Origin: a virus
Length of the DNA stretch: 36,041 bases
Strand: one strand, 5' to 3'
IMG/VR virus record: IMGVR_UViG_3300037504_000198
Span: 1 to 36,041 of that record
The translations under genes were made by a program, and so were the position numbers. The notes below the pieces were generated by a model, which saw only the letters and a program-made list of their open reading frames with translations, was not told the DNA's origin and did no database searches. Below, one piece after another: positions 9,870-29,747 of this stretch (the stretch's first letter is position 1; every line of letters begins with the position of its first letter).

Positions 9870-10469
9870 TCAATATTCAAAGCTAAACGGTATACCTTTA
9901 GACAGCATCCATTCAAAGGGGTTATGGGCATTCTTGCTGCAATTACAGGATATACACGCGGGTACAATATTGTTAGCTGTGTGTGTACCTCCCTTACTGA
10001 TAGGGATAAAATGATCTTGTGTTAGCTTTACATCGGTTGCCCCACAGTATGAGCAAGAATGATTACACTCTGCTTTTATCTGTTCCCATTGCTCTTCTGT
10101 AAGCATATCTTCGGTAGGGGTGCCCATCTTCTTTACATAGCGTACCTTTTCATATTGGCGGGCTTTAAATAAATTCTTATCCCTCCATTCCTTTTGCTTT
10201 TTCCTATACTCTTTACGGTATTCCTCATCTGTCTGATACCGAGAAGTACGAACTTTGCTGTATTTCTTACGGTATTCTTTCTCTTTCTCCCTAACCTCAG
10301 GGTTATTAGCCCTACGTTGCCTCATAACCTCTCTGTTCTTTACTCGCATACATTCCTTACAAGTACCTCTATAGTACCTGTTAGGGCGTTCTTTGTCTTT
10401 TCTAGTTGGGAAGTGGGATAGCTCTTTCTCTATCCCACAAACACTACATACTTTTGTCACGTTGAACAC
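9870..10469 (-). CDS. HNH endonuclease beside ribonucleotide reductase
   Basis: 199 aa. An N-terminal four-Cys finger (VCSVCGIEK...CKECMR) is followed by a long basic helical linker rich in Arg, Lys and Glu, then an HNH domain: CSYCGATDVKLTQDHFIPISKGG, NIVPACISCNCSKN. GTG at 10469 is used here; a GTG at 10460 that overlaps the RNR stop as GTGA is an equal alternative. It lies directly behind the RNR gene with overlapping ends. It is probably a homing endonuclease; target and activity unknown. The closest relatives in the window are the HNH genes at 6762 and 25788. Confidence 0.87.
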   Translation of the reverse strand: MFNVTKVCSVCGIEKELSHFPTRKDKERPNRYYRGTCKECMRVKNREVMRQRRANNPEVREKEKEYRKKYSKVRTSRYQTDEEYRKEYRKKQKEWRDKNLFKARQYEKVRYVKKMGTPTEDMLTEEQWEQIKAECNHSCSYCGATDVKLTQDHFIPISKGGTHTANNIVPACISCNCSKNAHNPFEWMLSKGIPFSFEY

Positions 10470-15991: not shown

Positions 15992-17151
15992 GTACTTTCT
16001 TGCAACCAATTTACAAACAACTTGCGCATACGTGCAGCTGGTAGGATCAGCGTTATGGGTTTGTTGTCTCTCAGTGCTGATCTGAAAATGAATTGTATCA
16101 GTTCTGTTAGTGCATATTGATCATTGTCAAGTGGTATCTTATGTTGTTCACAAAAGCGTTTAATCTCCGGTTTATAGTTCCTTGACCATAGGTAGAATAT
16201 AACGGTTTTGTCTTTGTATTCATTGGTAGCTCTGGTATTTACTGCAAGCCAGGTAGCAGTTTTATAGCGGGTACCTCGTAGTTTATCCCATTGATCTTTC
16301 GGGCAAGTAAAGAGCATATCTTCTATCTTGATATGTGTGTTATTCCCTAGGAATGCAGTAATCTTTTTCTTTAGCTCTGGCTTCTTTATCTTCTTTTTCC
16401 AGTCATTCCAAGTATACGAGTAACCTAACGCTGTTATACCGCTAACATCTGGCATATTTATTAGTTCCCTGATCTCTGCTTTTACTTGTGAACTAGACTT
16501 CATAAGTTCCGGTTTTATCATTCTAACCAGCAAACAATGAGACGTTAACCAGGAATAGAACAAAGAGTTTATAAACTTATATGTTAGGATATATACTTTA
16601 CTGAATTGCTTAAGTATAGCCGGGGATAACTCCGCTATAATTATATTCTCTTCAAACAAGTATGCAAGTCCGCTTTTACAAGCACGGTATATAATATGTT
16701 CTACTTGATCTTGTTCTTCATCATAGTCATCTATGTTACCCATAAAGAGCAAGCGGTTATCTGTAGATACTACTAAGTCCCCACCGTTTAGCATATTCCG
16801 CAATCTACCACGCGATATATCATAGGTGTCTATAACGTCTAATGCCTCATCTATAACCAATGTAGTGTTAGCGGGTATCTCTGCACTATCTAACTGTAAG
16901 AACAAAGCGTGTGTAGTAGCTATATTATGATGGCATATGCTTTGTCTAAACCCCTCCCGCAAAGTATACTTTGTTTCAGATAGCATAGGCATAGGCTTTA
17001 TAGTGTTATTTATAGCTTCGCATATACGATCTTGTTCTTGTTTTAGGGGGGTAACATATACAAACCTTTCCCCACTTTCCTTTAACTGGTTTATAATCCA
17101 GGTAGTTTTCCCCGTACCGGGTAGTTCATCAATTACATAAATCTCTGTCAT
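15988..17151 (-). CDS. SF2-like helicase/ATPase
   Basis: 387 aa. MTEIYVIDELPGTGKTTWII carries Walker A (residues 9-17), ANTTLVIDEALDVID carries the DEAL-type Walker B (Asp101, Glu102). The C-terminal LIQFIFRSALRDNKPITLIL is the motif VI-type Q-x-x-x-R-x-x-x-R segment. This arrangement recurs in phage DEAD-like helicases. It likely unwinds DNA in recombination or replication restart. It is the first gene of the minus-strand early block and faces the plus-strand replication genes across a shared control region. Confidence 0.78.
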   Translation of the reverse strand: MTEIYVIDELPGTGKTTWIINQLKESGERFVYVTPLKQEQDRICEAINNTIKPMPMLSETKYTLREGFRQSICHHNIATTHALFLQLDSAEIPANTTLVIDEALDVIDTYDISRGRLRNMLNGGDLVVSTDNRLLFMGNIDDYDEEQDQVEHIIYRACKSGLAYLFEENIIIAELSPAILKQFSKVYILTYKFINSLFYSWLTSHCLLVRMIKPELMKSSSQVKAEIRELINMPDVSGITALGYSYTWNDWKKKIKKPELKKKITAFLGNNTHIKIEDMLFTCPKDQWDKLRGTRYKTATWLAVNTRATNEYKDKTVIFYLWSRNYKPEIKRFCEQHKIPLDNDQYALTELIQFIFRSALRDNKPITLILPAARMRKLFVNWLQEST

Positions 17152-17229
17152 ACATTCCTCTTTCTGTTAGGGGTAAGCATATAGACGTGCTTACCTTGTA
17201 AATTTTAACTGATTACAAAGCCTTAAAAA

Positions 17230-17258
17230 TAGGGGTTCCGCATAAAAAAATCCCCCTA
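17230..17258 (-). terminator. Leader hairpin with U-tract before helicase gene
   Basis: TAGGGG (17230-17235) pairs with CCCCTA (17253-17258) over a 17-nt loop; on the minus strand it is followed by TTTTTAAGG. It lies between promoter P4 and the helicase start, so it would act as a leader attenuator instead of an end-of-operon terminator. The loop is long and the stem short. Confidence 0.45.
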
Positions 17259-17315
17259 AATATACTATAAATATAAGACGGACAAAGAAACAAAAATGTT
17301 TCAGTGACATCTATC

Positions 17316-17345
17316 AGTATACCACGGGTACTATCTGTTTGTCAA
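17316..17345 (-). promoter_or_regulatory. Promoter P4 (minus) for helicase
   Basis: TTGACA 17345-17340, 18-base spacer, TATACT 17321-17316. The ACAAGTTAA box and the usual GGGTG before the -10 are absent, so it is probably regulated differently from P1-P3. Confidence 0.7.
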
Positions 17346-17388
17346 TGTTTGCAACATATTGTTACCATTTAACGTCTAATATGTAACA

Positions 17389-17407
17389 GCGGGCCTTAAG
17401 GGCCCGC
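17389..17407. other. GC-rich hairpin in divergent region
   Basis: GCGGGCC TTAAG GGCCCGC: seven perfect GC pairs in an AT-rich setting, the strongest short hairpin in the window. No transcript is expected to end here unless P4 or P5 reads backward, so it may insulate the two divergent units or take part in replication initiation. Confidence 0.65.
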
Positions 17408-17474
17408 ATTTACCATTTATCATTTAATTTATAATCCGTATCTCATAATCTCTTTGTCACATATCGAGTAACAC

Positions 17475-17512
17475 ATATCAATATCTGCCATTGTAAAGGA
17501 ACATATTGATAT
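17475..17512. repeat. Inverted repeat upstream of promoter P5
   Basis: ATATCAATAT (17475-17484) and ATATTGATAT (17503-17512) are perfect inverted copies with centres 28 bases apart, ending 13 bases before the -35 of P5. The placement suggests an activator or repressor dimer site or an origin element. Confidence 0.5.
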
Positions 17513-17525
17513 TTGAAATTGATAC

Positions 17526-17568
17526 TTGACAACACATAGAACCTGTGCTATACTTGATTACAAGTTAA
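17526..17568 (+). promoter_or_regulatory. Family promoter P5 (plus) with ACAAGTTAA box
   Basis: TTGACA 17526-17531, 17-base spacer, TATACT 17549-17554, TGATTACAAGTTAA with the box at 17560-17568. It is the likely main promoter of the plus-strand early genes. Unlike P1-P3, P6 and P7 it lacks the upstream CTTGTAAATT block. Confidence 0.87.
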
Positions 17569-17593
17569 GCGAATAGAGAAAGCGAGGTAGATA

Positions 17594-17809
17594 ATGTTAC
17601 GTTGGCATTTAGTTACAATAGAGCAAGCTATAGAATATTATTATGATGATCTGGTATTAGAAGCGAGTGTACCAGATAGTGGTACACAATTCTTTGTAAA
17701 AGATATCAAAGAAGATGACGAGGGAATAGGGGTATATATAAATGGTACCTGGTTTCCTTGGGGGCAGAAGATACACATAAAGATATTGCCTGTTTGTAGA
17801 TATTTGTGA
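17594..17809 (+). CDS. Hypothetical early protein, 71 aa
   Basis: First gene after promoter P5, with GAGG before ATG 17594. MLRWHLVTIEQAIEYYYDD then an acidic loop (DIKEDDEGIG) and a beta-rich end. Its size and place match phage early control proteins. No family recognised. Confidence 0.62.
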   Translation: MLRWHLVTIEQAIEYYYDDLVLEASVPDSGTQFFVKDIKEDDEGIGVYINGTWFPWGQKIHIKILPVCRYL

Positions 17810-17830
17810 ATAAAGAGGGGAAATGAGGAA

Positions 17831-18082
17831 ATGAAAATGTTTTTGTACGCTTATGCGGTTACAGCTAGGAAAGGAAATATTGATGGTACGTTTGCGGTAG
17901 GAACAATGGCAGGTGCTAATATTGCACCAAATGATAAGAGGGCATATGAGATTGCTATAGGTGTAGCTAAAGATAAATTCCCTGGTTATGCAGGATGGTC
18001 TAAACACGATGCTTACTTGTGTGCAATACCAGAGGAATATGTTAACCAGAATGAACTAGACAGGTATGGAAACGGGAAATGA
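17831..18082 (+). CDS. Hypothetical protein, 83 aa
   Basis: MKMFLYAYAVTARKGNIDGTFAVGT, then KRAYEIAIGVAKDKFPG and a C-terminal acidic/polar part. GAGG site before ATG 17831. It shares with the next gene a pattern of beta hairpin followed by a helix ending in K-x-F-P-G (KDKFPG here, VELFPG there), hinting at a common small fold and an old duplication. Confidence 0.62.
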   Translation: MKMFLYAYAVTARKGNIDGTFAVGTMAGANIAPNDKRAYEIAIGVAKDKFPGYAGWSKHDAYLCAIPEEYVNQNELDRYGNGK

Positions 18083-18285
18083 AGTATCACATTATTCTAG
18101 AGACTAACGGTACAGTTAAGCAGCTATCACAAAGAGCACATACATTTAATAAAGCTATTAGACGGGCTAGGAAACTAGCAGTAGAACTATTTCCTGGTAA
18201 GGGTTTGACAAATACTTCTACAGGCTGTATACTTAAAGAGTACACAGAAGTTTATGTACTAGAAAGCGGGGGAATGGATATATAA
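18079..18285 (+). CDS. Hypothetical protein, 68 aa
   Basis: MKYHIILETNGTVKQLSQRA, then a basic helix NKAIRRARKLAVELFPGKG and a beta-rich end. Overlaps the previous stop by ATGA. The helix-FPG pattern resembles that of the preceding 83-aa protein. At its 3' end the reading frame of a further ORF opens (see 18320). Confidence 0.6.
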   Translation: MKYHIILETNGTVKQLSQRAHTFNKAIRRARKLAVELFPGKGLTNTSTGCILKEYTEVYVLESGGMDI

Positions 18286-18319
18286 GATTGTAGCAGGATG
18301 TAAAGTACTAGAGAGCTAT

Positions 18320-18460
18320 GTGGAATATGAGTTTGAAGTAGTAGCTATTTGGTATTGGGAAACAGAAGAGGATAAATGTACAACCCCTATTCTGTTTAAA
18401 AATAAAGAAACAGCGGAATACGTAGCAGAATATTTGAATGCAGATGTAATGGAGGTTTAA
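18320..18460 (+). CDS. Small hypothetical protein, about 46 aa (start uncertain)
   Basis: Read from GTG 18320, which has GAGAG at a good distance: MEYEFEVVAIWYWETEED... ending in ADVMEV at TAA 18460, 3 bases before the SSB gene. The frame is open further upstream, from 18263, and that part also looks coding (YKIVAGCKVLESYVE), but contains no ATG, GTG or TTG. Either it starts at GTG 18320, uses a rare codon such as ATT or ATA, or is made by frameshifting out of the 68-aa gene at GCGGGGGAA. Confidence 0.5.
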   Translation: MEYEFEVVAIWYWETEEDKCTTPILFKNKETAEYVAEYLNADVMEV

Positions 18461-18463
18461 GTT

Positions 18464-18982
18464 ATGAGTAATCAATGGCAGAAATTGGCGATGGATATGA
18501 CTTCTAGTGCTGACGGTGGTAGTATTGGGTTTGTGAAAGATACTAAAACGGTATTGAAGATTGTAGCCCCACCTAATGCTAAAGAGGAATTTAATACCGA
18601 TTGGTTTATGGAATGGTACCAAAAGTACCCCGGTAGTGACAAAGCTACCCGTAAATTTATGATCTATGCTGTAGACGTTCAATCCCAAGAAAAGAAAGTA
18701 CAGCCTTGGGTAATAGGAGCATCAGTTATGACACAAATAATCTCTTTGGTTAGTGATAATGATTACGATGTTCTTAGCCCAGATAACGGTACGCCTGTAT
18801 CTATTACTAAGCAAGGAAGCGGAATGAACACACGGTATAATGTACAAGCCGCTCCGAAAGTATTTGATAGCTCTAAATATAACACTGACAGTTGTATGTC
18901 TTTGTCGGAAGCTGTAGCACAGCTAACAAAGCCAAAGGATAGCAAGCCCGCTAATAATGCCGATACTGAGATCGACTGGTAA
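18464..18982 (+). CDS. Single-stranded DNA-binding protein, T4 gp32-like
   Basis: 172 aa. The stretch DATRKFMIYAVDVQSQEKKV-like, then GASVMTQIISLVSDNDYDVLS and ITKQGSGMNTRYNVQAAPK match the OB-core of gp32-type SSBs common in phages. An acidic, flexible C-terminal tail (NNADTEIDW) is the usual docking site for replication partners. GGAGG site before ATG 18464. It protects ssDNA and would recruit the helicase, primase and polymerase encoded downstream. Confidence 0.78.
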   Translation: MSNQWQKLAMDMTSSADGGSIGFVKDTKTVLKIVAPPNAKEEFNTDWFMEWYQKYPGSDKATRKFMIYAVDVQSQEKKVQPWVIGASVMTQIISLVSDNDYDVLSPDNGTPVSITKQGSGMNTRYNVQAAPKVFDSSKYNTDSCMSLSEAVAQLTKPKDSKPANNADTEIDW

Positions 18983-19011
18983 ATTGATAGCAAATTGCTT
19001 CATAAACCCTA

Positions 19012-19053
19012 TTGACAGATACGTTGATAGGGTTTATACTGTACACAAGTTGA
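19012..19053 (+). promoter_or_regulatory. Family promoter P6 (plus) with ACAAGTTGA box
   Basis: TTGACA 19012-19017, 17-base spacer ending AGGGTT, TATACT 19035-19040, ACAAGTTGA 19045-19053 (one base different from the others). Upstream AGCAAATTGCTT matches the P2 and P7 block. It starts the second plus-strand operon. Confidence 0.85.
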
Positions 19054-19082
19054 TAAACAAGTATACAGAAAGGCAATGAGTT

Positions 19083-19358
19083 ATGTGGACAGACAAGACG
19101 GTAGCAGCAACACCAGTAAGCAGAATTGTACGGGAAACTGAAAAGGCTTGGTTGATTAGCTTTGGAACAGTATCAGTCAACAGTGACGCGGAACATACTT
19201 ATTGGTTTCCTAAATCACAAACAGAGGTTTATGAAACTAGCACTTACTTGTTTCTTGTTTGTCCCGTATGGCTTGCTAAGAAAACCTTTTGTCACATTGC
19301 ACCTTATGGGATGGTAGGGTATTACAACAATCTACAGGACTTTGAAGCCAGTATATAA
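19083..19358 (+). CDS. Hypothetical protein, 91 aa
   Basis: First gene behind P6. MWTDKTVAATPVSRIVRETE then beta strands (AWLISFGTVSVNSDAEHTYW). It includes two Cys and many aromatic residues (VCPVWLAKKTFCHIAPYGMVGYY). Stop overlaps the next start as TAATG. No family recognised. Confidence 0.62.
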   Translation: MWTDKTVAATPVSRIVRETEKAWLISFGTVSVNSDAEHTYWFPKSQTEVYETSTYLFLVCPVWLAKKTFCHIAPYGMVGYYNNLQDFEASI

Positions 19359-19372
19359 TGAGGGAGGTATCT

Positions 19373-19401
19373 GAGACTATAACCTCACTGGTTATAGTCT
19401 C
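19373..19401 (+). promoter_or_regulatory. Hairpin bridging a ribosome binding site and start codon
   Basis: GAGACTATAACC TCACT GGTTATAGTCTC is a perfect 12-bp stem with a 5-nt loop. GGGAGG lies just upstream (19361-19366) and ATG 19409 lies 7 bases downstream. Folding leaves about 13 unpaired bases between them, nearly a working Shine-Dalgarno distance. No U-tract follows, so it is not a typical terminator. Confidence 0.6.
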
Positions 19402-19408
19402 TAATAAT

Positions 19409-19564
19409 ATGTTATGTGTATGGTGTAAGAAAGCAACAGCTAAGTATGGCAGTCCAAAGCTTTGCTATAAATGTTATAAGAAAAGAGCTAAGATCAAACA
19501 AGCTTCTATACTATCGGAACATAGTAACTTTTATGCCAGTAAATTAAAGGAGAAAACACAATGA
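19409..19564 (+). CDS. Small zinc-ribbon protein, 51 aa
   Basis: MLCVWCKKATAKYGSPKLCY: CxxC...CxxC spacing (CVWC, CYKC) followed by a Lys/Arg-rich helix KKRAKIKQ. ATG 19409 was chosen because the hairpin-bridged GGGAGG serves it and the residues before it are low-complexity codons of the hairpin itself; an in-frame ATG at 19358 would give 68 aa. Nucleic-acid or protein binding is likely. It ends overlapping the next gene (ATGA). Confidence 0.6.
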   Translation: MLCVWCKKATAKYGSPKLCYKCYKKRAKIKQASILSEHSNFYASKLKEKTQ

Positions 19565-19842
19565 ATGCTACAGACAAGCTACTCGCAGAAAAAGAAAGTG
19601 AATACGGGCAAGCGTGGCTAATAGCGGGTTATTGGTTGCATCATAAGGCTGTAAGGGATAGCACATTGTTTACAGATAGTCTCTTTGCACATAACTTTGT
19701 TCTCATACTGTCTAAGCTTGCTAGAGCATTGCACAGCCCTTACAACATCGATCACTGGAGAGACGCGGCGGGTTATGCAACGTTGGTAGCTAACTGGTTG
19801 AGTGAACATTTCCCTGAAGATGACACACAGAAGCCCTTTTAA
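19561..19842 (+). CDS. MazG-like/DUF6378-type phage protein
   Basis: 93 aa. The helical pattern ending FVLILSKLARALHSPYNIDHWRDAAGYATL closely matches the C-terminal core of DUF6378-like phage proteins, which are distantly MazG-like but lack its complete ExxE/ExxD metal site. YGQAWLIAGYWL is the N-terminal counterpart. It is a second, distinct nucleotide-pool-related candidate besides the true MazG at 12554. Biochemical role unproven. Confidence 0.65.
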   Translation: MNATDKLLAEKESEYGQAWLIAGYWLHHKAVRDSTLFTDSLFAHNFVLILSKLARALHSPYNIDHWRDAAGYATLVANWLSEHFPEDDTQKPF

Positions 19843-19865
19843 GGCTAGTTTTTTACTACTAATTT

Positions 19866-19925
19866 ATATACTGCATTGTAATGCTTTGTATATAATTAAC
19901 ACTAAGTGATTACAATGCAGTATAT
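19866..19925. repeat. 17-bp perfect inverted repeat upstream of PP-loop gene
   Basis: ATATACTGCATTGTAAT (19866-19882) and ATTACAATGCAGTATAT (19909-19925), loop 26 bases. It contains ACTGCATTGTAATGC, also found exactly at 8127. The loop ends CACTAAGTG, similar to the ACTAAGT of the 33-kb inverted repeat. On the plus strand TATTTTCT follows, so it could be a terminator or mRNA-processing element. Confidence 0.7.
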
Positions 19926-19992
19926 GTATTTTCTAGAAACTAAGAAGTTACGTGATAGTTGTATCGAGTAGATTGTTAGATGAGGCAAGACA

Positions 19993-20826
19993 ATGGATAA
20001 ACAACAGATCATAGACCAGCGGATACCTGTTATAGCGTCGTTTAGTGGGGGGAAAGATAGCACCGCACTTGTTCTATACCTACTATATGAAAGCGGTATA
20101 TCTAAAGAACAAATACATATTTTGTTTGCTGATACAGGATGGGAGCACCAGCACACATATGAACAGGTAGCTTTAATGAAAGAGATACACCCGGTGGATA
20201 TTGTACGATCTAAGAAATACCCTGGTGGTATGCCTCAACTTATGAAAGAGCGAGGTATACCTATACAGAAAGCACGCTTTTGTACACAGGAACTAAAAGT
20301 GTTCCCTATCAGAGAATACTTGCAGCAATTTGATAGTTATGTACAGGCTAAAGGTATACGCAAAGAAGAGGCAACAGCTAACAATAATAGAGATGTAGAT
20401 GAATTCGAGTTTGATCTAGGAACTATGATGTATTCCTGGTATCCCATCAAAGATTACACTTTGCAGGATGTTTGGTATATACACCACAGGTATGATTTTA
20501 GGATTAATCCCTTGTATGATATGGGGTTTAGTCGAGTTGGGTGTGCACCTTGTATCTTTGCTCGTAAGGGTGAGCTAGCTAAATGGAATGAACTAGCAGA
20601 GGACCACATAGACACTATCAGGAAAGCGGAAGAACAGAGAAACTTTCCCTATATTAGCCCCACTGGTAAACCTAAGCAGTACCATAACAAGGTATCTAAT
20701 AATGGTAAGCCGTATGCTGATATTGACAGTATTATGAAATGGGCTAATACAGCGAGTAAAGATCATAAGCATTACAATCCAGATGAGGATATACAGGGTA
20801 CTTGCAGTGAAGGGCTATGCGAATAG
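19993..20826 (+). CDS. PP-loop ATPase, PAPS reductase-like
   Basis: 277 aa. SFSGGKDSTALVLYLL (residues 17-32) is the PP-loop SGGKDS. HILFADTGWEHQHTYE is the following ATP-pyrophosphatase strand. Cys97 (ARFCTQELK) and GCAPC (Cys184, Cys187) may bind Fe-S or act in redox, and the C-terminal tail has a Cys271/Cys276 pair (CSEGLC). Phage proteins of this family are generally annotated phosphoadenosine phosphosulfate reductase; DNA phosphorothioation or tRNA thiolation roles cannot be excluded. No dnd partner genes are near. Confidence 0.78.
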   Translation: MDKQQIIDQRIPVIASFSGGKDSTALVLYLLYESGISKEQIHILFADTGWEHQHTYEQVALMKEIHPVDIVRSKKYPGGMPQLMKERGIPIQKARFCTQELKVFPIREYLQQFDSYVQAKGIRKEEATANNNRDVDEFEFDLGTMMYSWYPIKDYTLQDVWYIHHRYDFRINPLYDMGFSRVGCAPCIFARKGELAKWNELAEDHIDTIRKAEEQRNFPYISPTGKPKQYHNKVSNNGKPYADIDSIMKWANTASKDHKHYNPDEDIQGTCSEGLCE

Positions 20827-20836
20827 AGAGGTACCT

Positions 20837-21913
20837 ATGAAACAGGAGAGATTAATCTATCTAGCCACTATTCTAACACTACCGGAACTGCCAAAGGTAT
20901 TACAACGATATGTACCTTTGTACGATGTTATACAGGGCATTCAGAATTACGGTATAGTCGGGGTATCTGCTAATATAGAAAGTGTGCCAGATCAGTTAAT
21001 GGGTATGGTACGTAAAGGCAAGCAAGCCGGTGATACCGGTACTGTAGCAGAATACAAAGCTATCATAGCTGATATGGTGTACCACGGTGTATCTACTAGC
21101 AATCTAACAGGCAAGGAAAAGGTAGAGCTATATGCTGTGTTAGATCAATGGGTTAAAGCACAGCATACGTCACTTGTAGAAAAGAAGGTATCCTCGTTTG
21201 ATAAATCACTAGAAGTCACAGAAGAACAGGACTTCATTTTTAACACTGGATTTACCCCTATTGATACATTGTGTGATGGGTTACCATCAAATAGTTTTGT
21301 ATTGTTCTTAGCCCATACAGGTGCAGGTAAAACTTCTATAATGTTGTCTTTGGCAAATGATCTAGCATATAACTACCGTGTTGTGTATGTCACTTATGAG
21401 ATGAGCGACAACGCAGTAAGATATAGAGCTAAACATATGCCTAACCTTTGTACTAAAGATGTACTGCTATCTGGTAATGTCACGCTCGAAGAAATAGAAC
21501 AATATGCAGATGAAGATACGATCATCATTGTAGATTATCTGTCACTGGTACCTTACCCGGCTATGGAACTACGGCATAAGCTATCAGGTATCGCTGCAGA
21601 GCTTTTACGAATATCTACTAAATGTAAAGCGGTTATCAGTGCGCAGCAAGCAAAGAGAGGATACCCACTAAGCTTAGAAAGTGGTTCAGAAAGCTTTGCA
21701 GTTAGTCATTATGCTGCTTTGGTGTGCGGTATTAGCAAAGAAGGGAATGATTATAACTTTCCCGGTTACACTACGGTGGAAATAGAGACGTTTAAGAATA
21801 GGTATGGTAAAGCAGGTAATAAGGTTGTATTCCCATTTAACTATGCTACATTGCAGTATGAGCAGGTATCAGTTAGTGGGGATAGTCGAATAGATTATGA
21901 TGCAGATTGGTAA
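20837..21913 (+). CDS. DnaB-like replicative helicase
   Basis: 358 aa from ATG 20837, chosen because GAGAGG lies 5 bases upstream; an in-frame ATG at 20783 would lie inside the PP-loop gene. Helical N-terminal domain (1-130), then RecA-fold: FLAHTGAGKTSIML (Walker A, 157-170), YVTYEMS (motif H1a), TIIIVDYLSLVPY (Walker B, 228-240), VISAQQAKRG (motif H3) and a C-terminal DNA-binding motif (FKNRYGKAG). It would unwind the fork with the primase two genes downstream. Confidence 0.88.
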   Translation: MKQERLIYLATILTLPELPKVLQRYVPLYDVIQGIQNYGIVGVSANIESVPDQLMGMVRKGKQAGDTGTVAEYKAIIADMVYHGVSTSNLTGKEKVELYAVLDQWVKAQHTSLVEKKVSSFDKSLEVTEEQDFIFNTGFTPIDTLCDGLPSNSFVLFLAHTGAGKTSIMLSLANDLAYNYRVVYVTYEMSDNAVRYRAKHMPNLCTKDVLLSGNVTLEEIEQYADEDTIIIVDYLSLVPYPAMELRHKLSGIAAELLRISTKCKAVISAQQAKRGYPLSLESGSESFAVSHYAALVCGISKEGNDYNFPGYTTVEIETFKNRYGKAGNKVVFPFNYATLQYEQVSVSGDSRIDYDADW

Positions 21914-21927
21914 GGGAGGTTATACAA

Positions 21928-22197
21928 ATGGCAGTTAGTAGTAATATGGTAGATACACTTTTTACACTATTAGAAAGCAGTATAGAGACTATTGTAGGTG
22001 AGATAGGGCATACACAATGGGAAGCCAGGTTACATATTGCTCCTAGAACATATAAAGCATTAGAATATCGAGGATATATAACGATAGTTGATTATGGGTA
22101 TGCAAAAGCCTATAGGTTAACTGCTAGCGGTGAAAAGTATTTAGAAAAGTATCATTCTGAGAAATATTATGAGTTACAAAGCAGGGACGATACATAA
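21928..22197 (+). CDS. Small winged-helix-like protein, 89 aa
   Basis: ATG 21928 with GGGAGG upstream. RLHIAPRTYKALEYRGYITI followed by Y-A-K-A-Y-R-L-T-A-S-G-E-K-Y reads like the recognition helix and wing of a MarR/PadR-type winged helix, including the RLTxxG end motif common to such domains. Located between helicase and primase. It may be a helicase loader or a regulator. Assignment rests on short motifs. Confidence 0.55.
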   Translation: MAVSSNMVDTLFTLLESSIETIVGEIGHTQWEARLHIAPRTYKALEYRGYITIVDYGYAKAYRLTASGEKYLEKYHSEKYYELQSRDDT

Positions 22198-22954
22198 TGA
22201 TAACTTATTTGTTAGGTGTCCATATTGCGGTGATAGTCAATCAAGGCAGTATATCGGTCATCTATCAATTCAGATTGAAACCGGGCTATACTACTGCTTT
22301 CGTTGTGGAGTATCAGGTAAATTATCCCCGTTTGACTTTATAGACGTACTAACACAGTATGACATTGAATGCCCTTCAGAGCAATTGTGGGGCAATTTAA
22401 GAGACAATAGAGACTATATGGGTACTAACTATCAGGATAGTCGTTTTAGTCTCTTAGATCGTCACACAGACAGTAAGGGTAATGTTACTGTAGCTATGAG
22501 AGATGTACACGGCAACATTACAGGATACCAGCATAGAACACTAGACAAACGGATAAAGACAGAAGGTACCCGGAGTTATGGTTATGTTGGTAGCTCGCTG
22601 GTAAATACTGACTATATACGAATTGTAGAAGGGCCTTATGATGTTGTATATGATAATGATGTTTGTGTTTTTGGTTCTTTGTCTTATGGTATGGTACAGC
22701 GATTAAAGTTATATACATTGTTACTTGCGCCTGATGCTGATGTTATACGGCAACGGAGTAAACTACAGTCATTTACTTGTATGGTTGACAAGCTACTGGT
22801 AAAGGGTTATAATATTAAAGGGGTAGAAATATTTGAAAGCGGCTATGATCCGGGGAGGGCTTATGAAGAGAACAGACAAAGAACGGTGTTACCATCAGCA
22901 GAGTTTATCAGTACCGCTAAACAGAAGTTACAAGGTATTTCCAATAATTATTAG
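22169..22954 (+). CDS. DNA primase (zinc ribbon plus TOPRIM)
   Basis: 261 aa. Zinc ribbon: RCPYCGDSQ (Cys17, Cys20) and CFRCGVSG (Cys43, Cys46). TOPRIM: RIVEGPYDVV (Glu154 and Asp158) and LLLAPDADV (Asp189, Asp191). At 261 aa it is a minimal DnaG-like primase with a short middle region. Starts 29 bases inside the preceding gene with only a weak ribosome binding site, so coupled translation is likely. It primes lagging-strand synthesis with the DnaB-like helicase. Confidence 0.87.
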   Translation: MSYKAGTIHNDNLFVRCPYCGDSQSRQYIGHLSIQIETGLYYCFRCGVSGKLSPFDFIDVLTQYDIECPSEQLWGNLRDNRDYMGTNYQDSRFSLLDRHTDSKGNVTVAMRDVHGNITGYQHRTLDKRIKTEGTRSYGYVGSSLVNTDYIRIVEGPYDVVYDNDVCVFGSLSYGMVQRLKLYTLLLAPDADVIRQRSKLQSFTCMVDKLLVKGYNIKGVEIFESGYDPGRAYEENRQRTVLPSAEFISTAKQKLQGISNNY

Positions 22955-23087
22955 TTACGATGGGGCTGAACGAAAATCTTATAGAGTAGTCCTATTTGTA
23001 AACGCTTGCTTCATAGCACAGTATTTTTATAAAACAGAGAAGGGCGCTACTAACAGAGGTGAAAGATTTGTGAAAGAAGGGAAATAA
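22863..23087 (+). CDS. Hypothetical basic protein, 74 aa
   Basis: ATG 22863 has GGGAGGG just upstream and opens in another frame within the primase 3' end. MKRTDKERCYHQQSLSVPLN, then a beta-rich part (RKSYRVVLFVNACFIAQYFY). The last base of its stop is the first of the methyltransferase ATG (TAATG). The long overlap (92 bases) and good site favour it being real. No family recognised. Confidence 0.55.
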   Translation: MKRTDKERCYHQQSLSVPLNRSYKVFPIIISYDGAERKSYRVVLFVNACFIAQYFYKTEKGATNRGERFVKEGK

Positions 23088-23698
23088 TGCGAGTATTAGT
23101 AGCTTGTGAATATAGTGGAATAGTTAGAGATGCTTTTGCAGATAAAGGTCATTATGCTGTTAGCTGTGATCTACTACCAACAGAGAGCGTAAAGAGTGAA
23201 GGGTACCATTACCAGGGTGATGTAAGAGACATACTATATGATAGTTGGGATATGATGATAGCTCACCCTCCCTGTACTTACTTAGCTGTTAGTGGGGCAA
23301 GATGGTTTGATGAAGATAAACACGGTGATAAAGCCTGGGAACGTAAACAATTAAGGTTAGAAGCTATAGACTTTGTAAACCTATTATGGAATAGTGGTAT
23401 ACCGAAAATAGCTATAGAAAACCCTGTTGGCTTTCTTAGTAGTATGTGGAAAAAACCTTCCCAGATAGTACAGCCTTATTATTTTGGAGATACAGAATAT
23501 AAGAATATATGTTTATGGTTAAAAGGTTTACCATTACTAGAGAAAACTAATGTAGTAGAACCTACGGTATACGGATACAGAAATAACAAGAAACAAGGTA
23601 AGACGAAAGTATACTACACACATAAATGTAATATACCTAAAGACCGTAGTAAGTTTTTTACAGGGATAGCTAAAGCAATGGTAGATCAATGGAGTTAG
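23087..23698 (+). CDS. DNA cytosine-5 methyltransferase-like protein
   Basis: 203 aa. MRVLVACEYSGIVRDAFADK (motif I with FxGxG replaced by EYSG), AVSCDLLP (motif II acidic), MMIAHPPCTYLAVSG (motif IV with the catalytic Pro62-Cys63), IAIENPVGF (motif VI ENP, Glu111). There is no recognisable target-recognition domain, and the protein is much shorter than true Dcm enzymes. It may be a solitary phage methylase protecting against restriction or an enzyme on dCMP-level substrates. Same operon as PolA. Confidence 0.72.
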   Translation: MRVLVACEYSGIVRDAFADKGHYAVSCDLLPTESVKSEGYHYQGDVRDILYDSWDMMIAHPPCTYLAVSGARWFDEDKHGDKAWERKQLRLEAIDFVNLLWNSGIPKIAIENPVGFLSSMWKKPSQIVQPYYFGDTEYKNICLWLKGLPLLEKTNVVEPTVYGYRNNKKQGKTKVYYTHKCNIPKDRSKFFTGIAKAMVDQWS

Positions 23699-23710
23699 AA
23701 AGGGTATAAA

Positions 23711-25786
23711 ATGCATATAGTAGAGTATGGCATCGATACAACGTATATGCTAGTGTTTAGCAATGGAATAAACAAAAAGTTAGTATCAGAGTTTGGGGAT
23801 TGCATTGTATTAGATTTAGAAGCAAAGAAGGTACCAACCACAAAGCGGTTTTACTCCGAACTAGAGACAGAGATAGCTGAATATAAACCCCAGCGTATAC
23901 TAGCAATTGGTACTGTAGCTAGCAAGGTATTGCTTAAAGAAAGATACTCTGATATTCGCAAATGCCACGGTGGATTGTTTGCAATGTCAGATGGTAGTAT
24001 TGTAATCCCTGTCTATGAACAGTACGCAGATAGGGATATAGAGCGGGCTAAAACATTGCAGTATGAAGTACCAGAATACCAGGAGGTAACAGAGCTACCA
24101 ACGTTAGAAGGTGATGTATATATAGACATAGAAACAGATGGGTTAGAAGCTAATACGATTACATCTATACAGCTAGGGGATACCCGGAACGTATACTATA
24201 TCGCTAGTCCATCAGCTAAACTACTAATTGAGCTATATAATTACTTGTCAGGTAAAGGCGGTAAGATCATAGGGCATAACCTTATATCGTTTGATCTGCC
24301 AGCACTGAGTAAGCATACGGGTTGTGAATGGTTGGGTATCCCAGATATATACGATACTATGATCCTAGCACATAACAGAGGGTTGAAACCCCTAGGACTT
24401 AAACATTTAACAACAATGCACACAGATGTAAACAACCCTGATGCTTATGCACAGGCAGCACATAGCTTTGATAAAGTCTATGCGGTAGCTGATATTGTAG
24501 CTACCAGGGCATTGTATCAGCGATTAGTACGTAAGGGTATACGACCGATTGATCATCTAACTATGCAGACAGCTATCGTATTCCAAAAGTCACACCAAAG
24601 GGGTATAGCAGTAAATAGGGATACCCTGCTAACAGAGCAGCAAAAGCTACAGGTAGACATTGATACTTATATGGAACAGTTAGAAGATTATGGGTTAATC
24701 AATTGGAATGCTAATAAAGAAGTGTCGGAGTTTCTAGCAGCTATGGGTATTCCACTTACTGAAAAGACAGCAGGAGGTAACTATAGTGTAGCTAGTAAGG
24801 TGCTAGAAGATCATAGGGAATGGGAAGTAGTGGATACCCTACTAAAGTATCGGGAAGCGAATAAGCTACTAAGTACGTTCTATGATAAGTATGTAGAATT
24901 AACAGCAGATGGTACGAACACTATACACCCGGAGATACTAATAACGGGAACAGACACAGGTAGATCATCTTCTAGAAACCCTAACATTCAGCAGACAAGT
25001 AGCAATGTTAAGAATGTGTTTGTTAGTCGTTATGAGCAAGGGTATATTGCATCGTTTGATCTGGCACAAAGTGAATTAAGGTGTGCTGCTATTCTGTCTG
25101 GTGATAGCAATCTAGCAGACGATCTTAATTCCGGGGATATGCACAAGAAAACCGCTGCTAGTGCATTCGGCATACTCGAAAGTGAAGTTACTAAAGATAA
25201 GCGCCAACTAGCAAAGATGATTAACTTCGGGAACATCCTTTATCTTGGCAGCGTTAAGGGTATTGCTAACCGCAGTGGTGCAGATGAGGAGCTACTAGAA
25301 AAAGTAAGTCAAGCAGCAAAGGAACGGTATCACGTCTTTACCTCTTGGCAGGAATATCAAATACATCGCTTCACAAAGACTATGAAGCTAGTAGATACAT
25401 TTGGTCGTATACGGGATTTAGAGCCAGTTAAAGCTAACGGGTATGGTAATGGTATCGGAAGTGTTAAGCGGGCTATAGTCAATACTCCTGTTCAGGCACT
25501 ATCGGCATACCTTTGCTATTACTTGGGGAATTACATAGAAGATCGTATGCCTGGTACCTTTATCGCTAATGTACACGACGCGGTATATTGCGATATTCCT
25601 GCAACAAAAGTCGATGAGTTTCGTATAGTATGTATAGATGCTTTTGAGTATCTGAACCATATACCAGAACTTAACTCATTGCCAGGATGGTATTTAGTAT
25701 CAGTGCAAGGAGAGCTAACCTTTGCAGAGACAATGAATGATTACGGTGTGGAGATTGACACTTTATTGACAAGTAAAAAGGAGTAA
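23711..25786 (+). CDS. polA: DNA polymerase, family A, with 3'-5' exonuclease and UDG-like N-terminus
   Basis: 691 aa. Residues 1-120 include PQRILAIGTVASKVLL and a CHGG pattern like the back half of uracil-DNA glycosylase family 4, without its GEAPG motif. Exonuclease: Asp139/Glu141 (YIDIETDGL), Asn190/Asp195 (GHNLISFDLPAL), Asp261 (YAVADIVAT). Polymerase: TGRSSSRNPNIQQTS (417-431), Asp450/Glu455 (SFDLAQSELR), O-helix Arg498-Lys502-Phe506, His622-Asp623 (VHDAV). The O-helix end reads FGNILYLG, two residues longer than the usual FGxxYG. The 5'-3' exonuclease is a separate gene two ORFs downstream. AAAGGG site. Confidence 0.93.
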   Translation: MHIVEYGIDTTYMLVFSNGINKKLVSEFGDCIVLDLEAKKVPTTKRFYSELETEIAEYKPQRILAIGTVASKVLLKERYSDIRKCHGGLFAMSDGSIVIPVYEQYADRDIERAKTLQYEVPEYQEVTELPTLEGDVYIDIETDGLEANTITSIQLGDTRNVYYIASPSAKLLIELYNYLSGKGGKIIGHNLISFDLPALSKHTGCEWLGIPDIYDTMILAHNRGLKPLGLKHLTTMHTDVNNPDAYAQAAHSFDKVYAVADIVATRALYQRLVRKGIRPIDHLTMQTAIVFQKSHQRGIAVNRDTLLTEQQKLQVDIDTYMEQLEDYGLINWNANKEVSEFLAAMGIPLTEKTAGGNYSVASKVLEDHREWEVVDTLLKYREANKLLSTFYDKYVELTADGTNTIHPEILITGTDTGRSSSRNPNIQQTSSNVKNVFVSRYEQGYIASFDLAQSELRCAAILSGDSNLADDLNSGDMHKKTAASAFGILESEVTKDKRQLAKMINFGNILYLGSVKGIANRSGADEELLEKVSQAAKERYHVFTSWQEYQIHRFTKTMKLVDTFGRIRDLEPVKANGYGNGIGSVKRAIVNTPVQALSAYLCYYLGNYIEDRMPGTFIANVHDAVYCDIPATKVDEFRIVCIDAFEYLNHIPELNSLPGWYLVSVQGELTFAETMNDYGVEIDTLLTSKKE

Positions 25787-25787
25787 T

Positions 25788-26387
25788 ATGGACAGTAAGG
25801 TTTGTAATGGCTGTGGTATTAATAAACCTATTAGCGAATACTATAAGGCAGCTAAAGGTAAAGATGGCTATAGAGGTAAATGTAAGGTTTGTGATAACAC
25901 TCGCACAAAAGCGTATTATCAAACTCCACAAGCTAAAGAGAAAAGGAGAGTATCTGCTAGTTTGTGGAGAGCAAACAACAAAGACAAGATCAAAGAGTAC
26001 AATAAGAAACACGGGCATACTGCATACTTAAAGTATAAAGAAACAGAGCACGGTAAAGAAGCAAGGCGTAGGGGAGAGAAGAAGTACAATAAATCTACTA
26101 AAGGCATTTTGAGAGACAAGCGTAAACAGCATAAAAGGAGAACTAAAGTGAAAGATGGGGGAACATTCACCAATGAAGAATGGCAAGATCGTCTACTCGA
26201 ATACAACTATTGTTGCGCATACTGTTATAAACCATTCCCTGTAGATGAGCTAACAATAGATCATATGCAACCGTTAAGCAGGGGAGGTACTAATACCATT
26301 GATAATCTTGTACCTGCTTGTAAATCGTGCAATAGTCGAAAGAAGGATAAGACGCCACTAGAGATGCTACAAAAGGGGTTGATGTAA
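25788..26387 (+). CDS. HNH endonuclease beside DNA polymerase
   Basis: 199 aa with a strong AAGGAG site. N-terminal finger VCNGCGINK...CKVCDN, long Lys/Arg-rich linker, then the HNH core: CCAYCYKPFPVDELTIDHMQ, PLSRGG, NLVPACKSCNSRKK. Begins one base after the polymerase stop and ends overlapping the exonuclease start (TAATG). Same domain order as the HNH genes next to terminase and RNR; a typical free-standing homing endonuclease placed between two replication genes. Confidence 0.88.
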   Translation: MDSKVCNGCGINKPISEYYKAAKGKDGYRGKCKVCDNTRTKAYYQTPQAKEKRRVSASLWRANNKDKIKEYNKKHGHTAYLKYKETEHGKEARRRGEKKYNKSTKGILRDKRKQHKRRTKVKDGGTFTNEEWQDRLLEYNYCCAYCYKPFPVDELTIDHMQPLSRGGTNTIDNLVPACKSCNSRKKDKTPLEMLQKGLM

Positions 26388-27130
26388 TGAAATACTTAGA
26401 TGCGGGATATGTTGTATTTAGTTACGCTTATAGAGGTGGATTTGATGCTTGGGTAAAGGATAGGGCTATTTACTCTAAGTATGCGGGTTGTACTTTTGTT
26501 ACAGAAGGTTTCAAAAGCATACGTAAGCAGATATACCCGTGGTACAAATTGAATAGAGATACTGATAAACTTACTGATAAGCAAATAGAGGTACGGGAGC
26601 TAACTAAGCCCATTTGGAAGGATATATACGACAATGCTATGTTTCAAACGGTATTCAATTCGATTTTAGAAGCCGATGACATTTTAGCTATAAAGGCTTT
26701 GCAAGGGTTCACAATCGTAACTTGTGACAAAGACCTTGCACAACTACCTGAATGGTGCAACATTGAAAAGTTAGACGGTACACCACTACGTACTAACCTA
26801 TATGCTGGTCTACCAAAGTCTATGCACTATTTGGAGATGACACCAGATCGTTATCTCCTAACCTTGTGTTTGTACGGTGATAAGAGCGATAACATACCAC
26901 GTTTGATACCTAAAGGCAGTAAGGCTATAAAGGAAAGCTTAGATATTTATGAAGCGGGTAATCCCTGGGAATTAGCATACAACGAGTATGGTACTGCATT
27001 GCTAGATAACTTATACGCTGCCATACTCCCTAACCCATACGCTTTACAAGGTAGGGTATTAGATAAAGAAGAGGTTTATAATTTAGTAAAAGAAGGGGAA
27101 TATAACCAATATGTATTTGAACACATTTAG
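26387..27130 (+). CDS. 5'-3' exonuclease / flap endonuclease
   Basis: 247 aa. LEADDILAI (Glu95, Asp97, Asp98), VTCDKDLAQL (Asp114, Asp116) and LYGDKSDNIPRL (Asp165, Asp168) are the metal-ligand motifs of the FEN/PIN-like 5' nuclease family, with the helix-hairpin-helix beginning after the GDKSDN motif. It would remove RNA primers and flaps, supplying the activity missing from the neighbouring PolA. The N-terminal MKYLDAGYVVFSYAYR lacks the usual first catalytic Asp in a clear DG/DA context other than Asp5. Confidence 0.83.
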   Translation: MKYLDAGYVVFSYAYRGGFDAWVKDRAIYSKYAGCTFVTEGFKSIRKQIYPWYKLNRDTDKLTDKQIEVRELTKPIWKDIYDNAMFQTVFNSILEADDILAIKALQGFTIVTCDKDLAQLPEWCNIEKLDGTPLRTNLYAGLPKSMHYLEMTPDRYLLTLCLYGDKSDNIPRLIPKGSKAIKESLDIYEAGNPWELAYNEYGTALLDNLYAAILPNPYALQGRVLDKEEVYNLVKEGEYNQYVFEHI

Positions 27131-27404
27131 CGGATATATCAATGAGGGTACTACCTGGAACAAAGTAATAACTAAAGAAGAAAGGTCAGAGCTACTAAGA
27201 TCACAGAGGGTACCTTATGAACTTGTTAGTACACCCTGGTTATACAAATGGTTTCTAGTAGCTGAGAAAGAAATATGTTATATGCAGGATACTCGTTTTG
27301 ATTTAGCGGAGTTAGCAGCTGATGTACACCTCGCTTATAAGAGAAAGAACTATACAGAGTTTAAGGCATTGCTACTAGAGTTTATACGAAGGGGGAGGTA
27401 TTAA
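27111..27404 (+). CDS. Hypothetical protein, 97 aa
   Basis: Starts 20 bases inside the exonuclease gene with GGGGA upstream. Helical, charged (ITKEERSELLRSQRVP; LAADVHLAYKRKNYTEFKAL). Its stop overlaps the next ATG (TAATG). Context: DNA replication/repair operon. No family recognised. Confidence 0.6.
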   Translation: MYLNTFSGYINEGTTWNKVITKEERSELLRSQRVPYELVSTPWLYKWFLVAEKEICYMQDTRFDLAELAADVHLAYKRKNYTEFKALLLEFIRRGRY

Positions 27405-27748
27405 TGGAATGTTATGTATATATACGTGTAAGTACAAAGGCACAAGCAAAGCACGGGTATAGTTTAGGCGGGCAAGAAAGAGATTGTCTCATATATGCTG
27501 ATAAAATAGGGGTTAATGTAGTCGAAGTAATATGTGATGTAGGTAGCGGAACTAAGATGCTACCTGGTATGCAACGTATATTAGATAGTGATGTACCGGG
27601 GATTGTTGTATACTCATCTGATAGGCTAACACGCTGTCCCGAAATAGATAAAGAAATTCATAGGCGCAAATCTGTATTTATAGCCGATGAATTAGAAAGA
27701 AGGTTTACGAAGGAACTAGAGGGGAGTATTAAATGTTTTATGGTGTAG
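27404..27748 (+). CDS. Serine recombinase catalytic domain without DNA-binding domain
   Basis: 114 aa. MECYVYIRVSTKAQAKHGYS has Arg8 and nucleophile Ser10 in the YIRVST context. GYSLGGQERDC (Gln24) and VYSSDRLTR (Asp73, Arg74, Arg77) complete the resolvase/invertase active site. The protein stops after the region of the E helix; no C-terminal HTH or zinc-ribbon recombinase domain follows in any frame. It is thus either a truncated integrase/resolvase or a stand-alone catalytic subunit. Followed with a 16-base overlap by membrane proteins and an FtsK-like ATPase. Confidence 0.82.
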   Translation: MECYVYIRVSTKAQAKHGYSLGGQERDCLIYADKIGVNVVEVICDVGSGTKMLPGMQRILDSDVPGIVVYSSDRLTRCPEIDKEIHRRKSVFIADELERRFTKELEGSIKCFMV

Positions 27749-28155
27749 CTATCACACTATGGTTACTTGGCTTATGGTTTACATATGACGCTATGAACTT
27801 TATGGGTGCGAGTAATCCACTAATCACAGCGTTTATAGTACAAGTAGTGTTGTCCTTCGGTCAATCGCTTATAGTCAATGAAAAGTACAAGGCACTCCCA
27901 CAAACACAACAGAAGATCATACTTGTATTTGCTGTAGTGTTTATTAGTTTAGATGTATGGCTTAACTATAGGGGACTGGAGGGTAAGCTAGGGAACTTAC
28001 ACGCTATAATGCCGACACAAATACAACAGCAAATAGCCGCTGTAACGTTTAACAATTTAGCACAATGGTTTGCTGCTGTGGGGGTTAGTGTATTAGCTGA
28101 GATACTTTTTAATGTAGGTAAGGTAGGTAAAGTAAGAGGGGGGCATATGCAATGA
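27733..28155 (+). CDS. Four-helix membrane protein, 140 aa
   Basis: Hydrophobic segments at about 3-20, 28-48, 61-80 and 108-128, short loops and a basic C-terminus (GKVGKVRGGHMQ) likely cytoplasmic. GGGGAG site. Lies between the recombinase and the ATPase genes with overlapping ends, so it is probably part of the same function, such as anchoring the ATPase. No family recognised. Confidence 0.68.
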   Translation: MFYGVAITLWLLGLWFTYDAMNFMGASNPLITAFIVQVVLSFGQSLIVNEKYKALPQTQQKIILVFAVVFISLDVWLNYRGLEGKLGNLHAIMPTQIQQQIAAVTFNNLAQWFAAVGVSVLAEILFNVGKVGKVRGGHMQ

Positions 28156-28280
28156 GTGAAGGATTGATTATAGCTCTGTTGCTCTTCTCTCTATTGCTTT
28201 ATGAATGGGGGTTATGGGAATGTGGTTACAACATAATGAAAAGGTTCTTTTATTGGCTCTTTCGGTTACTCTCACAGTAG
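28152..28280 (+). CDS. Very small membrane protein, 42 aa
   Basis: MSEGLIIALLLFSLLLYEWG start at ATG 28152 that overlaps the TGA of the preceding gene. One hydrophobic helix (4-18) and an aromatic/basic tail (MKRFFYWLFRLL). It overlaps the ATPase start by about 60 bases in another frame. Reality rests on start-stop coupling and the amphipathic composition. Confidence 0.42.
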   Translation: MSEGLIIALLLFSLLLYEWGLWECGYNIMKRFFYWLFRLLSQ

Positions 28281-28999
28281 TGTTAATTGGAGTACGTGGT
28301 ACTTTGGCTATATTGGCTGTGTATGGAGTTATAAGGGCTTTGTATATTTATAGGCGATATTGGTATCAAGTAAAGAAAGAGAAGCGTACTCCGGTACCTC
28401 TTACTTTACAATTAGCAAATGGTGTCCGGGTAAATTATAAGCATTTATCTAGTATGGGTATATCAGGTATGCCAGGATCAGGTAAAAGTACATATGCAGC
28501 GTACTTACTGAAACAAGTAACAGGTATGACTATTTATGTATTAGATATACATTACCCTGACAGTCAATCTTTAGGAGCAAGGATAGAACGAGAAGGGATA
28601 CCAGCAAAGATTTATAGTGGTATAGATCAGATAGAAGATCATCTATCAGAGATGAGAGACGGCATAACTGTTATAGATGAGTACACATCTTTGTTAAGGC
28701 AAAAGCCTACACTGAAATCCAGGGTACTCGACTATGTACAACAAGGTAGAAAGTATAAATGTTATATATGGCTTATAGGGCAACATTGGTCTAGTAAAAG
28801 TGCTGGGGGTACCGATATTAGAGACAGCCTTGTAGCTTTTGCAGCACTATACCAAAAGGTAAAGGATGGGCGTATGAGTACGGGTCTATCAGATATACCT
28901 GATACTGGCAAGTTACGGCATAGCCAGGTATTGCTTGTGGTGTATGGTAGAGGTATACAAGGGGTTTATACTTATGATAGTAAATTACTTGCAAATTAG
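28220..28999 (+). CDS. Membrane-anchored FtsK/HerA-like ATPase
   Basis: 259 aa from ATG 28220, preferred over in-frame ATGs at 28205 and 28214 because GGGGG lies at a usable distance. Two membrane segments at about 8-24 and 27-45, then a RecA-fold ATPase: MGISGMPGSGKSTYAAYLL (Walker A, 83-91), ITVIDEYTSLL (Walker B, Asp153/Glu154), IWLIGQHWSSK (sensor Gln188), DIRDS (Arg201). The FtsK/TraG/VirB4/HerA group pumps DNA or proteins at membranes. In a phage this suggests plasmid-like DNA transfer or partition, or a Zot-like assembly factor. Ends exactly in the upstream block of promoter P7. Confidence 0.75.
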   Translation: MWLQHNEKVLLLALSVTLTVVLIGVRGTLAILAVYGVIRALYIYRRYWYQVKKEKRTPVPLTLQLANGVRVNYKHLSSMGISGMPGSGKSTYAAYLLKQVTGMTIYVLDIHYPDSQSLGARIEREGIPAKIYSGIDQIEDHLSEMRDGITVIDEYTSLLRQKPTLKSRVLDYVQQGRKYKCYIWLIGQHWSSKSAGGTDIRDSLVAFAALYQKVKDGRMSTGLSDIPDTGKLRHSQVLLVVYGRGIQGVYTYDSKLLAN

Positions 29000-29012
29000 T
29001 GGAAAAAAGGGG

Positions 29013-29056
29013 TTGACAAGTGGTGGTATAGGGTTTATACTTGATTACAGAGTTAA
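29013..29056 (+). promoter_or_regulatory. Family promoter P7 (plus) with ACAGAGTTAA box
   Basis: TTGACA 29013-29018, 17-base spacer ending AGGGTT, TATACT 29036-29041, TGATTACAGAGTTAA with one inserted base in the box (29047-29056). Upstream TTACTTGCAAATTAGTGG matches P2 and includes the stop codon of the ATPase gene. Confidence 0.86.
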
Positions 29057-29083
29057 GTAATACACAAGAAAGCGAGTGACACA

Positions 29084-29299: not shown

Positions 29300-29301
29300 A
29301 A

Positions 29302-29511: not shown

Positions 29512-29524
29512 GATCATAACTGTT

Positions 29525-29554: not shown

Positions 29555-29602
29555 TGTTATTCTCAACTAACGATATACCCTGCCCCATATACCCCCATAC
29601 CC

Positions 29603-29685: not shown

Positions 29686-29747
29686 TAGCATACCAGTTAG
29701 TAGTCTATCGTGTCTTAAAATGGCGGATATTGCCCTTTTTGAGCATT

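Follow-up and report, generated by a model that had tools for sequence, protein, structure and literature searches.

A perfect hairpin between a strong Shine-Dalgarno sequence and a distant start codon in an uncultivated phage: a candidate accommodated ribosome-binding site

How does a ribosome select the start codon of a small cysteine-motif gene (gene B) when the strong Shine-Dalgarno (SD) sequence ahead of it is separated from the ATG at 19409 by an overlong spacer that contains a perfect hairpin? Hairpin-bridged ribosome-binding sites (RBSs) rest on few worked examples, among them T4 genes 25 and 38 and the differently built thrS of E. coli. If the reading favored here is true, the longer spacer and stem of this junction would widen the known limit of what the 30S subunit can bypass, and genes of this kind can be overlooked when starts are called by their distance from an SD.

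The window, which is the entire stretch of DNA that was analyzed, spans the whole of an uncultivated virus record (36,041 bases, 39% G+C). The virus is an unclassified phage with genes for a major head protein, a portal, a terminase, a family A DNA polymerase, a DnaB-like helicase, a gp32-like SSB, a PAPS-reductase-like protein, a methyltransferase, and a class II-like ribonucleotide reductase. No blastn match to positions 18464 to 20826 was found among 50,697 phage records, and no DNA neighbors were found in plasmids. The identity of the polymerase to those of 80 viral loci did not exceed 31% (best segment). By these sequence comparisons, the window phage appears to be far from the records searched. 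The SD, hairpin, and ATG 19409 lie at a gene junction in a probable early/replication operon of the phage (Table 1).

Table 1. Positions of the features at and around the junction of genes A and B
Feature	Positions	Strand	Remarks
Promoter, TTGACA-17-TATACT	19012–19040	+	Upstream of gene A; one of a near-consensus promoter family in the phage
Gene A, 91 aa, function unknown	19083–19358	+	Stop TAA (19356–19358) overlaps ATG 19358
Alternative start, ATG in TAATG	19358–19360	+	Would give a 68-aa product; its SD is weak (about −3 to −4 kcal/mol)
SD, GAGGGAGGT	19360–19368	+	One of the strongest SDs of the window; the 9-mer pairs with the anti-SD at −12.3 kcal/mol
Perfect 12-bp hairpin, loop TCACT	19373–19401	+	About −17.7 kcal/mol; confined to the spacer between SD and ATG; lacks a T-tract
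Gene B from ATG 19409, 51-aa CxxC...CxxC protein (zinc-ribbon-like)	19409–19564	+	Stop overlaps the ATG of the next gene at 19561
Gene C, 93 aa, DUF6378-like	19561–19842	+	Own SD, AAGGAG

The element GGGAGG, which a sequence-only reading of this DNA had placed at 19361 to 19366, is present but lies one base further on, at 19362 to 19367. The same one-base shift applies to the spacing. The proposed shortening of the spacer by folding would be from 41 nt to 12 nt rather than from 42 to 13. The longer figure is the distance from the last G of GGAGG (19367) to ATG 19409, and the shorter is what remains when the hairpin is skipped (5 nt before and 7 nt after the stem; 11 nt if counted from GGAGGT). 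The hairpin, GAGACTATAACC-TCACT-GGTTATAGTCTC, was found to be perfect over 12 bp, with a 5-nt loop, at exactly 19373 to 19401. It was also correct that no start codon follows the SD at a normal distance; no ATG or GTG is there in any frame, and no TTG was seen there.

The hairpin is the only perfect stem of at least 12 bp (loop of 3 to 8 nt) in the window, and 20 dinucleotide shuffles yielded none. Across phage DNA, perfect stems of at least 12 bp occur about once per 53 kb (84 strand listings, equal to 42 stems, in 2.23 Mb). SD-like 9-mers as strong as that of the junction lie inside other genes of the window phage, at 26281 and 24080 on the plus strand and at 9994 and 12769 on the minus strand. 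Because such stems recur and such 9-mers sit inside other genes, the hairpin alone or the SD alone is unremarkable; it is the arrangement of both that is remarkable. To evaluate chance, 35,426 positions of the transcribed strands of the window phage were examined, with a 29-nt stretch skipped at every one. The chance of an ATG 2 to 12 nt downstream together with an SD just upstream was 0.065% for an SD of −12 kcal/mol or lower and 0.34% for an SD of −9 kcal/mol or lower. The arrangement is real and is more than chance.

In predicted folds, the stem had a probability of 0.999 at 37°C and of at least 0.99 in all contexts at temperatures between 25 and 60°C. The SD and the ATG were predicted to be unpaired at 37°C with probabilities of about 0.7 and about 0.6 to 0.7, respectively. 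Longer folds added three UAU/AUA pairs below the stem (probability of about 0.5 to 0.9) and also paired the 9 nt after ATG 19409 (unpaired probability of about 0.05 in the 101-nt fold). Such pairing just after the ATG could hinder initiation and would speak against maximal initiation. The fold energy was 3.1 standard deviations lower than that of shuffled sequences in the 101-nt fold but only 1.4 standard deviations lower in the 181-nt fold.

A temperature switch, which had been suggested for the hairpin, did not survive modeling. The stem persists at 60°C in the model, with a probability of 0.99, and the SD lies outside the stem, so an RNA thermometer was rejected. An intrinsic terminator was rejected as well, because the tail TAATAATATG has no T-run and the hairpin is not among the 10 terminator-like sites in 17100 to 29800. 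There were no Rfam matches at gathering score in the window.

The last base of the TAA stop of gene A is the A of ATG 19358. Because the frame is open from that ATG through the hairpin into the CxxC gene, ATG 19358 (68 aa) and ATG 19409 (51 aa) are alternative in-frame starts, 51 nt apart. The window phage relies on SDs, with a median near-SD energy of −7.1 kcal/mol over 45 other assumed starts. Neither of the two candidate starts has a near SD of such strength. The value for ATG 19409 was −2.2 kcal/mol, and 3 of the 45 other starts were as weak or weaker. The value for ATG 19358 was −3.0 kcal/mol within 0 to 12 nt, or −4.0 kcal/mol at 14 nt; a weak SD alone does not exclude this start, because 7 of the 45 other starts had near SDs that were weaker still. 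Only ATG 19409, among 47 starts examined, combined a far SD of −7 kcal/mol or lower with a spacer fold of −4 kcal/mol or lower.

The coding character of the stretch between the two starts was evaluated against 319 in-frame 16-codon stretches drawn from 16 genes; the model used to score a stretch excluded the gene it came from. The 16 codons from 19361 to 19408 scored −2.02 bits, below 315 of the 319 stretches (4 were as low), and were outscored by all 16 gene starts. Wrong-frame stretches that scored as high or higher numbered 78 of 319 in one frame and 23 of 319 in the other. This result favors 19361 to 19408 as leader rather than coding sequence and favors ATG 19409 as the start. The low score may derive in part from the hairpin itself, because a perfect palindrome limits codon choice. 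A start at 19409 puts the first cysteine two residues after the methionine, and the small cysteine-motif open reading frames in two other loci (L069 and L044) likewise have a methionine near the first cysteine.

The spacer-shortening reading is the best supported because there is no near SD at 19409 and a weak one at 19358, the stem is formed with the SD mostly open, the 5′ extension codes poorly, and the architecture is like that of T4 genes 25 and 38. It is also the most economical, and it is probably a new example of a known mechanism. We judge it probable that the junction is an accommodated (split) RBS of the T4 gene 25/38 type. Translation of gene A would end at UAA 19356 to 19358 and expose the strong SD (GAGGGAGGU). 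The 12-bp hairpin beside the SD would stay folded and protrude from the 30S subunit. The folded hairpin would leave an effective spacing of about 12 nt between the SD and AUG 19409, from which the 51-aa CxxC/CxxC protein would be translated. Two steps of this account are inferred, namely, that the 30S subunit tolerates the hairpin in its folded state and that initiation takes place at AUG 19409. Because the SD lies just behind the gene A stop, gene B is likely to be coupled in some degree to gene A translation.

Several features by which an accommodated RBS is recognized were found at the junction, namely, an overlong distance from SD to start, a predicted stable hairpin located wholly in the spacer, and the lack of a competing near SD. 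Counted against this assignment are the open frame from 19358, the recurrence of TAATG overlaps, and the internal SD-like 9-mers. The effective spacing of 12 nt (11 nt from GGAGGT) is at or slightly beyond the T4 values of 5 and 11 nt and is at the long end of the range.

The likeness to T4 genes 25 and 38 that had been proposed held when the T4 regions were folded alongside as controls, with the same SD-hairpin-AUG geometry. According to a review, the spacing is reduced by structure from 27 to 11 nt in gene 25 and from 22 to 5 nt in gene 38, mutations that destabilize the structure reduce initiation, and gene 25 is supported by reporter, DMS, and phylogenetic data (PMC3014915). Folded here, the gene 25 start region gave a 7-bp stem of −7.4 kcal/mol with an SD of −5.8 kcal/mol, and the gene 38 start region gave a UUCG-capped stem of about −14 kcal/mol with an SD of −9.3 kcal/mol. 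The gene 26-25 junction resembles that of the window in that its SD is too far from the AUG, the entire hairpin lies between the two, the effective spacing is about 11 nt, and the position is intercistronic with a one-base stop/start overlap. However, the SD and hairpin of gene 25 lie inside the end of gene 26 and its AUG overlaps the gene 26 stop, whereas in the window both elements come after the stop and the AUG lies another 51 nt downstream. The window also has a longer spacer (41 versus 27 nt), a longer and more stable stem (12 bp and about −17.7 kcal/mol versus 7 bp and about −7.4 kcal/mol), and a stronger SD (−12.3 versus −5.8 kcal/mol). Gene 25 is backed by mutants, probing, and conservation; the window case is known from sequence and predicted folding. 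T4 gene 38 shares the order SD-hairpin-AUG and an SD directly 5′ of the stem, but its stem is GC-rich with a UUCG cap and its spacer is shortened from 22 to 5 nt, in contrast to the AT-richer stem and the shortening from 41 to 12 nt in the window. In E. coli thrS, a hairpin reportedly stands between a single-stranded upstream domain that binds the ribosome and the remainder of the site, unlike the window hairpin, which separates the SD from the AUG. What thrS has in common with the window is a folded hairpin within the RBS, which in thrS is accommodated (PMC3936740).

Relatives of gene B were sought in several collections. The description of gene B as a zinc-ribbon gene is based on cysteine spacing, which is CVWC and then CYKC, and not on a family match, as there were only weak, subthreshold Pfam hits. 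In tblastn searches of phages, gene B had no match at an E value of 1 and nine weak matches at an E value of 10 (best E value, 2), all inside unrelated genes. The single match in viral contigs (locus L001) was rejected because it overlaps a 400-aa open reading frame in a different frame and its gene context is unlike that of gene B. In genome contigs, 0 of 99 stretches were confirmed. No relative of gene B was thus found in the searched collections, which may omit near relatives, and hence these gave no conservation or covariation signal. The exact hairpin arms were found elsewhere in neither viral contigs nor genome contigs (0 in each). The helicase, SSB, and DNA polymerase, used as single queries, had no viral relative, and the helicase had none in phages either. 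Among the 160 loci gathered from methyltransferase and polymerase alignments, which serve as background only, there was no relative of gene A or gene B.

The survey for similar junctions covered the window and 165 loci, together 166 records and 2,230,949 bases. The filter called for an SD of −7 kcal/mol or lower within 20 nt upstream of the stem, fewer than 5 T in the 8 nt after it, an ATG or GTG 1 to 10 nt after it, and an open reading frame of at least 40 codons. With stems of at least 7 bp, 17 rows passed; 1 was dropped for a near SD, and the other 16 had none. Of these, several resemble stretches of GC-rich coding sequence and probably passed by chance. The survey undercounts, because the requirement for a perfect Watson-Crick stem of at least 7 bp and an SD of −7 kcal/mol or lower would miss T4 gene 25 (SD, −5.8 kcal/mol) and gene 38 (G-U pairs).

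Among the 16 rows, only the window and one other site (L156:5082) had a 12-bp stem and an SD of −9 kcal/mol or lower. That site, at 5060 to 5120 of contig IMGVR_UViG_3300020020_000063, reads TAA-AGGAGG-C-hairpin-TCTGATC-ATG, with a perfect 12-bp hairpin. Its ATG is the start of a gene for a 95-aa protein that has the motifs CPTC and CTCKC and is encoded between an endolysin region and an exonuclease gene. It has in common with the window the TAA stop, the SD, the perfect 12-bp hairpin, the 7 nt that follow, and the ATG of a small cysteine-motif gene. Unlike the window, it belongs to an unrelated phage and has a GC-rich stem with a pyrimidine tail, because of which an intrinsic terminator is also possible there. 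The L156 site may offer a second accommodated RBS from nature; alternatively, its hairpin may be a terminator that lies behind an SD by coincidence. It had no relative besides itself in the searched collections.

The main rival to the spacer-shortening reading is termination-reinitiation at the TAATG overlap, in which gene B would start at ATG 19358, the 68-aa protein would include the segment encoded by the hairpin, and the SD and hairpin would be incidental or would slow the ribosome. The overlap is perfect and the frame is open through the hairpin. The phage has other one-base gene overlaps (starts at 26387, 27404, 34398, and 4807), of which that at 4807 has a weak SD (−2.9 kcal/mol), and SD-like 9-mers inside genes are not rare in the window phage. 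We nevertheless regard reinitiation as unlikely. The near SD of 19358 is just −3.0 to −4.0 kcal/mol, the codon usage of the 17-residue extension falls below that of 315 of 319 coding stretches, and one of the strongest SDs of the phage would have been left before a hairpin and an in-frame ATG by chance (0.065 to 0.34%).

Another possibility is that both starts are used. Reinitiating ribosomes would unfold the hairpin and make the 68-aa form, free ribosomes would use the SD-hairpin-AUG path to make the 51-aa form, and translation of gene A would set the ratio. The two starts share a reading frame at a distance of 51 nt, and the hairpin begins 15 nt past the last stop base of gene A, which, judging from the size of the ribosome footprint, would be about the front edge of a terminating ribosome. 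Termination would thus not need to open the hairpin, and elongation from 19358 would have to. The weak SD and poor coding character of the longer form make this possibility rather improbable.

It is very unlikely that the hairpin has a role other than spacing, whether in mRNA processing or stability, as a protein or DNA operator, or as the 5′-end hairpin of a transcript from a promoter at 19331 to 19359, with gene B starting at 19409 without a useful SD. The palindrome is perfect, TATAAT at 19354 to 19359 is part of a 10/12 promoter match, and SD-poor starts do exist in the window phage. However, 10/12 promoter matches are at chance level, with 45.65 expected per shuffle (both strands, spacers of 15 to 19), and the promoter was rejected on this ground. 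The hairpin has no T-run, is absent from the terminator scan, and has no Rfam match, and its half-sites are not clearly repeated. A repeated operator was rejected on a count of 8 half-site matches with two mismatches against 4.04 expected (5 of 100 shuffles reached 8), as was a repeated palindrome on a count of 8 palindromes with three mismatches against 4.60 expected (10 of 100 shuffles reached that number), the site itself being included in both counts. A hairpin without a spacing role would also leave the strong SD unexplained.

Highly doubtful, too, is a two-state switch in which ACCUC (19382 to 19386), in the 5′ arm and loop, pairs with the complementary SD, so that opened or nascent RNA would hide the SD and closure of the hairpin would both free it and shorten the spacer, as part of a recurrent stop-SD-hairpin-AUG module before small cysteine-motif genes of unrelated phages whose cysteine-motif protein might bind the hairpin and regulate itself. 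In RNA limited to 19356 to 19389, the predicted fold (−5.9 kcal/mol) pairs the 5′ arm and loop with the SD region, and in the model the full hairpin displaces this pairing once the 3′ arm exists. This fold and the second case in L156 count for the switch, both weakly.

Several other features of the window phage were observed. Near-consensus promoters of the form TTGACA-17/18-TATA(C/A)T lie on the plus strand at 17526 to 17554, 18205 to 18233, 19012 to 19040, 22785 to 22813, and 29013 to 29041, and on the minus strand at 15991 to 15963, 8634 to 8606, 9834 to 9806, 13789 to 13761, and 17345 to 17316. Promoter matches of 11 or 12 exceed those in shuffles (3.0 and 0.1 expected per shuffle, respectively, both strands). 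Several members of the family have AGGGTT/G before the −10 box and a sequence like ACAAGTTAA immediately behind it, which hints at an extension of the promoter specific to this phage; the intragenic sites (18205, 22785, and 13789) do not have the downstream part. Three HNH/endonuclease VII-like genes (6762 to 7421, minus; 9870 to 10469, minus; and 25788 to 26387, plus) adjoin the terminase, ribonucleotide reductase, and DNA polymerase genes, a placement as expected of mobile homing endonucleases. The 114-aa protein encoded at 27404 to 27748 (plus) has only a partial N-terminal domain of a serine recombinase (resolvase) and is probably truncated. The gene listed from TTG 21907 (plus) more likely starts at ATG 21928, which has the SD AAGGGAGGT at 21912. 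A terminator-like hairpin at 29525 to 29554 (plus) lies between the ends of convergent plus- and minus-strand gene blocks.
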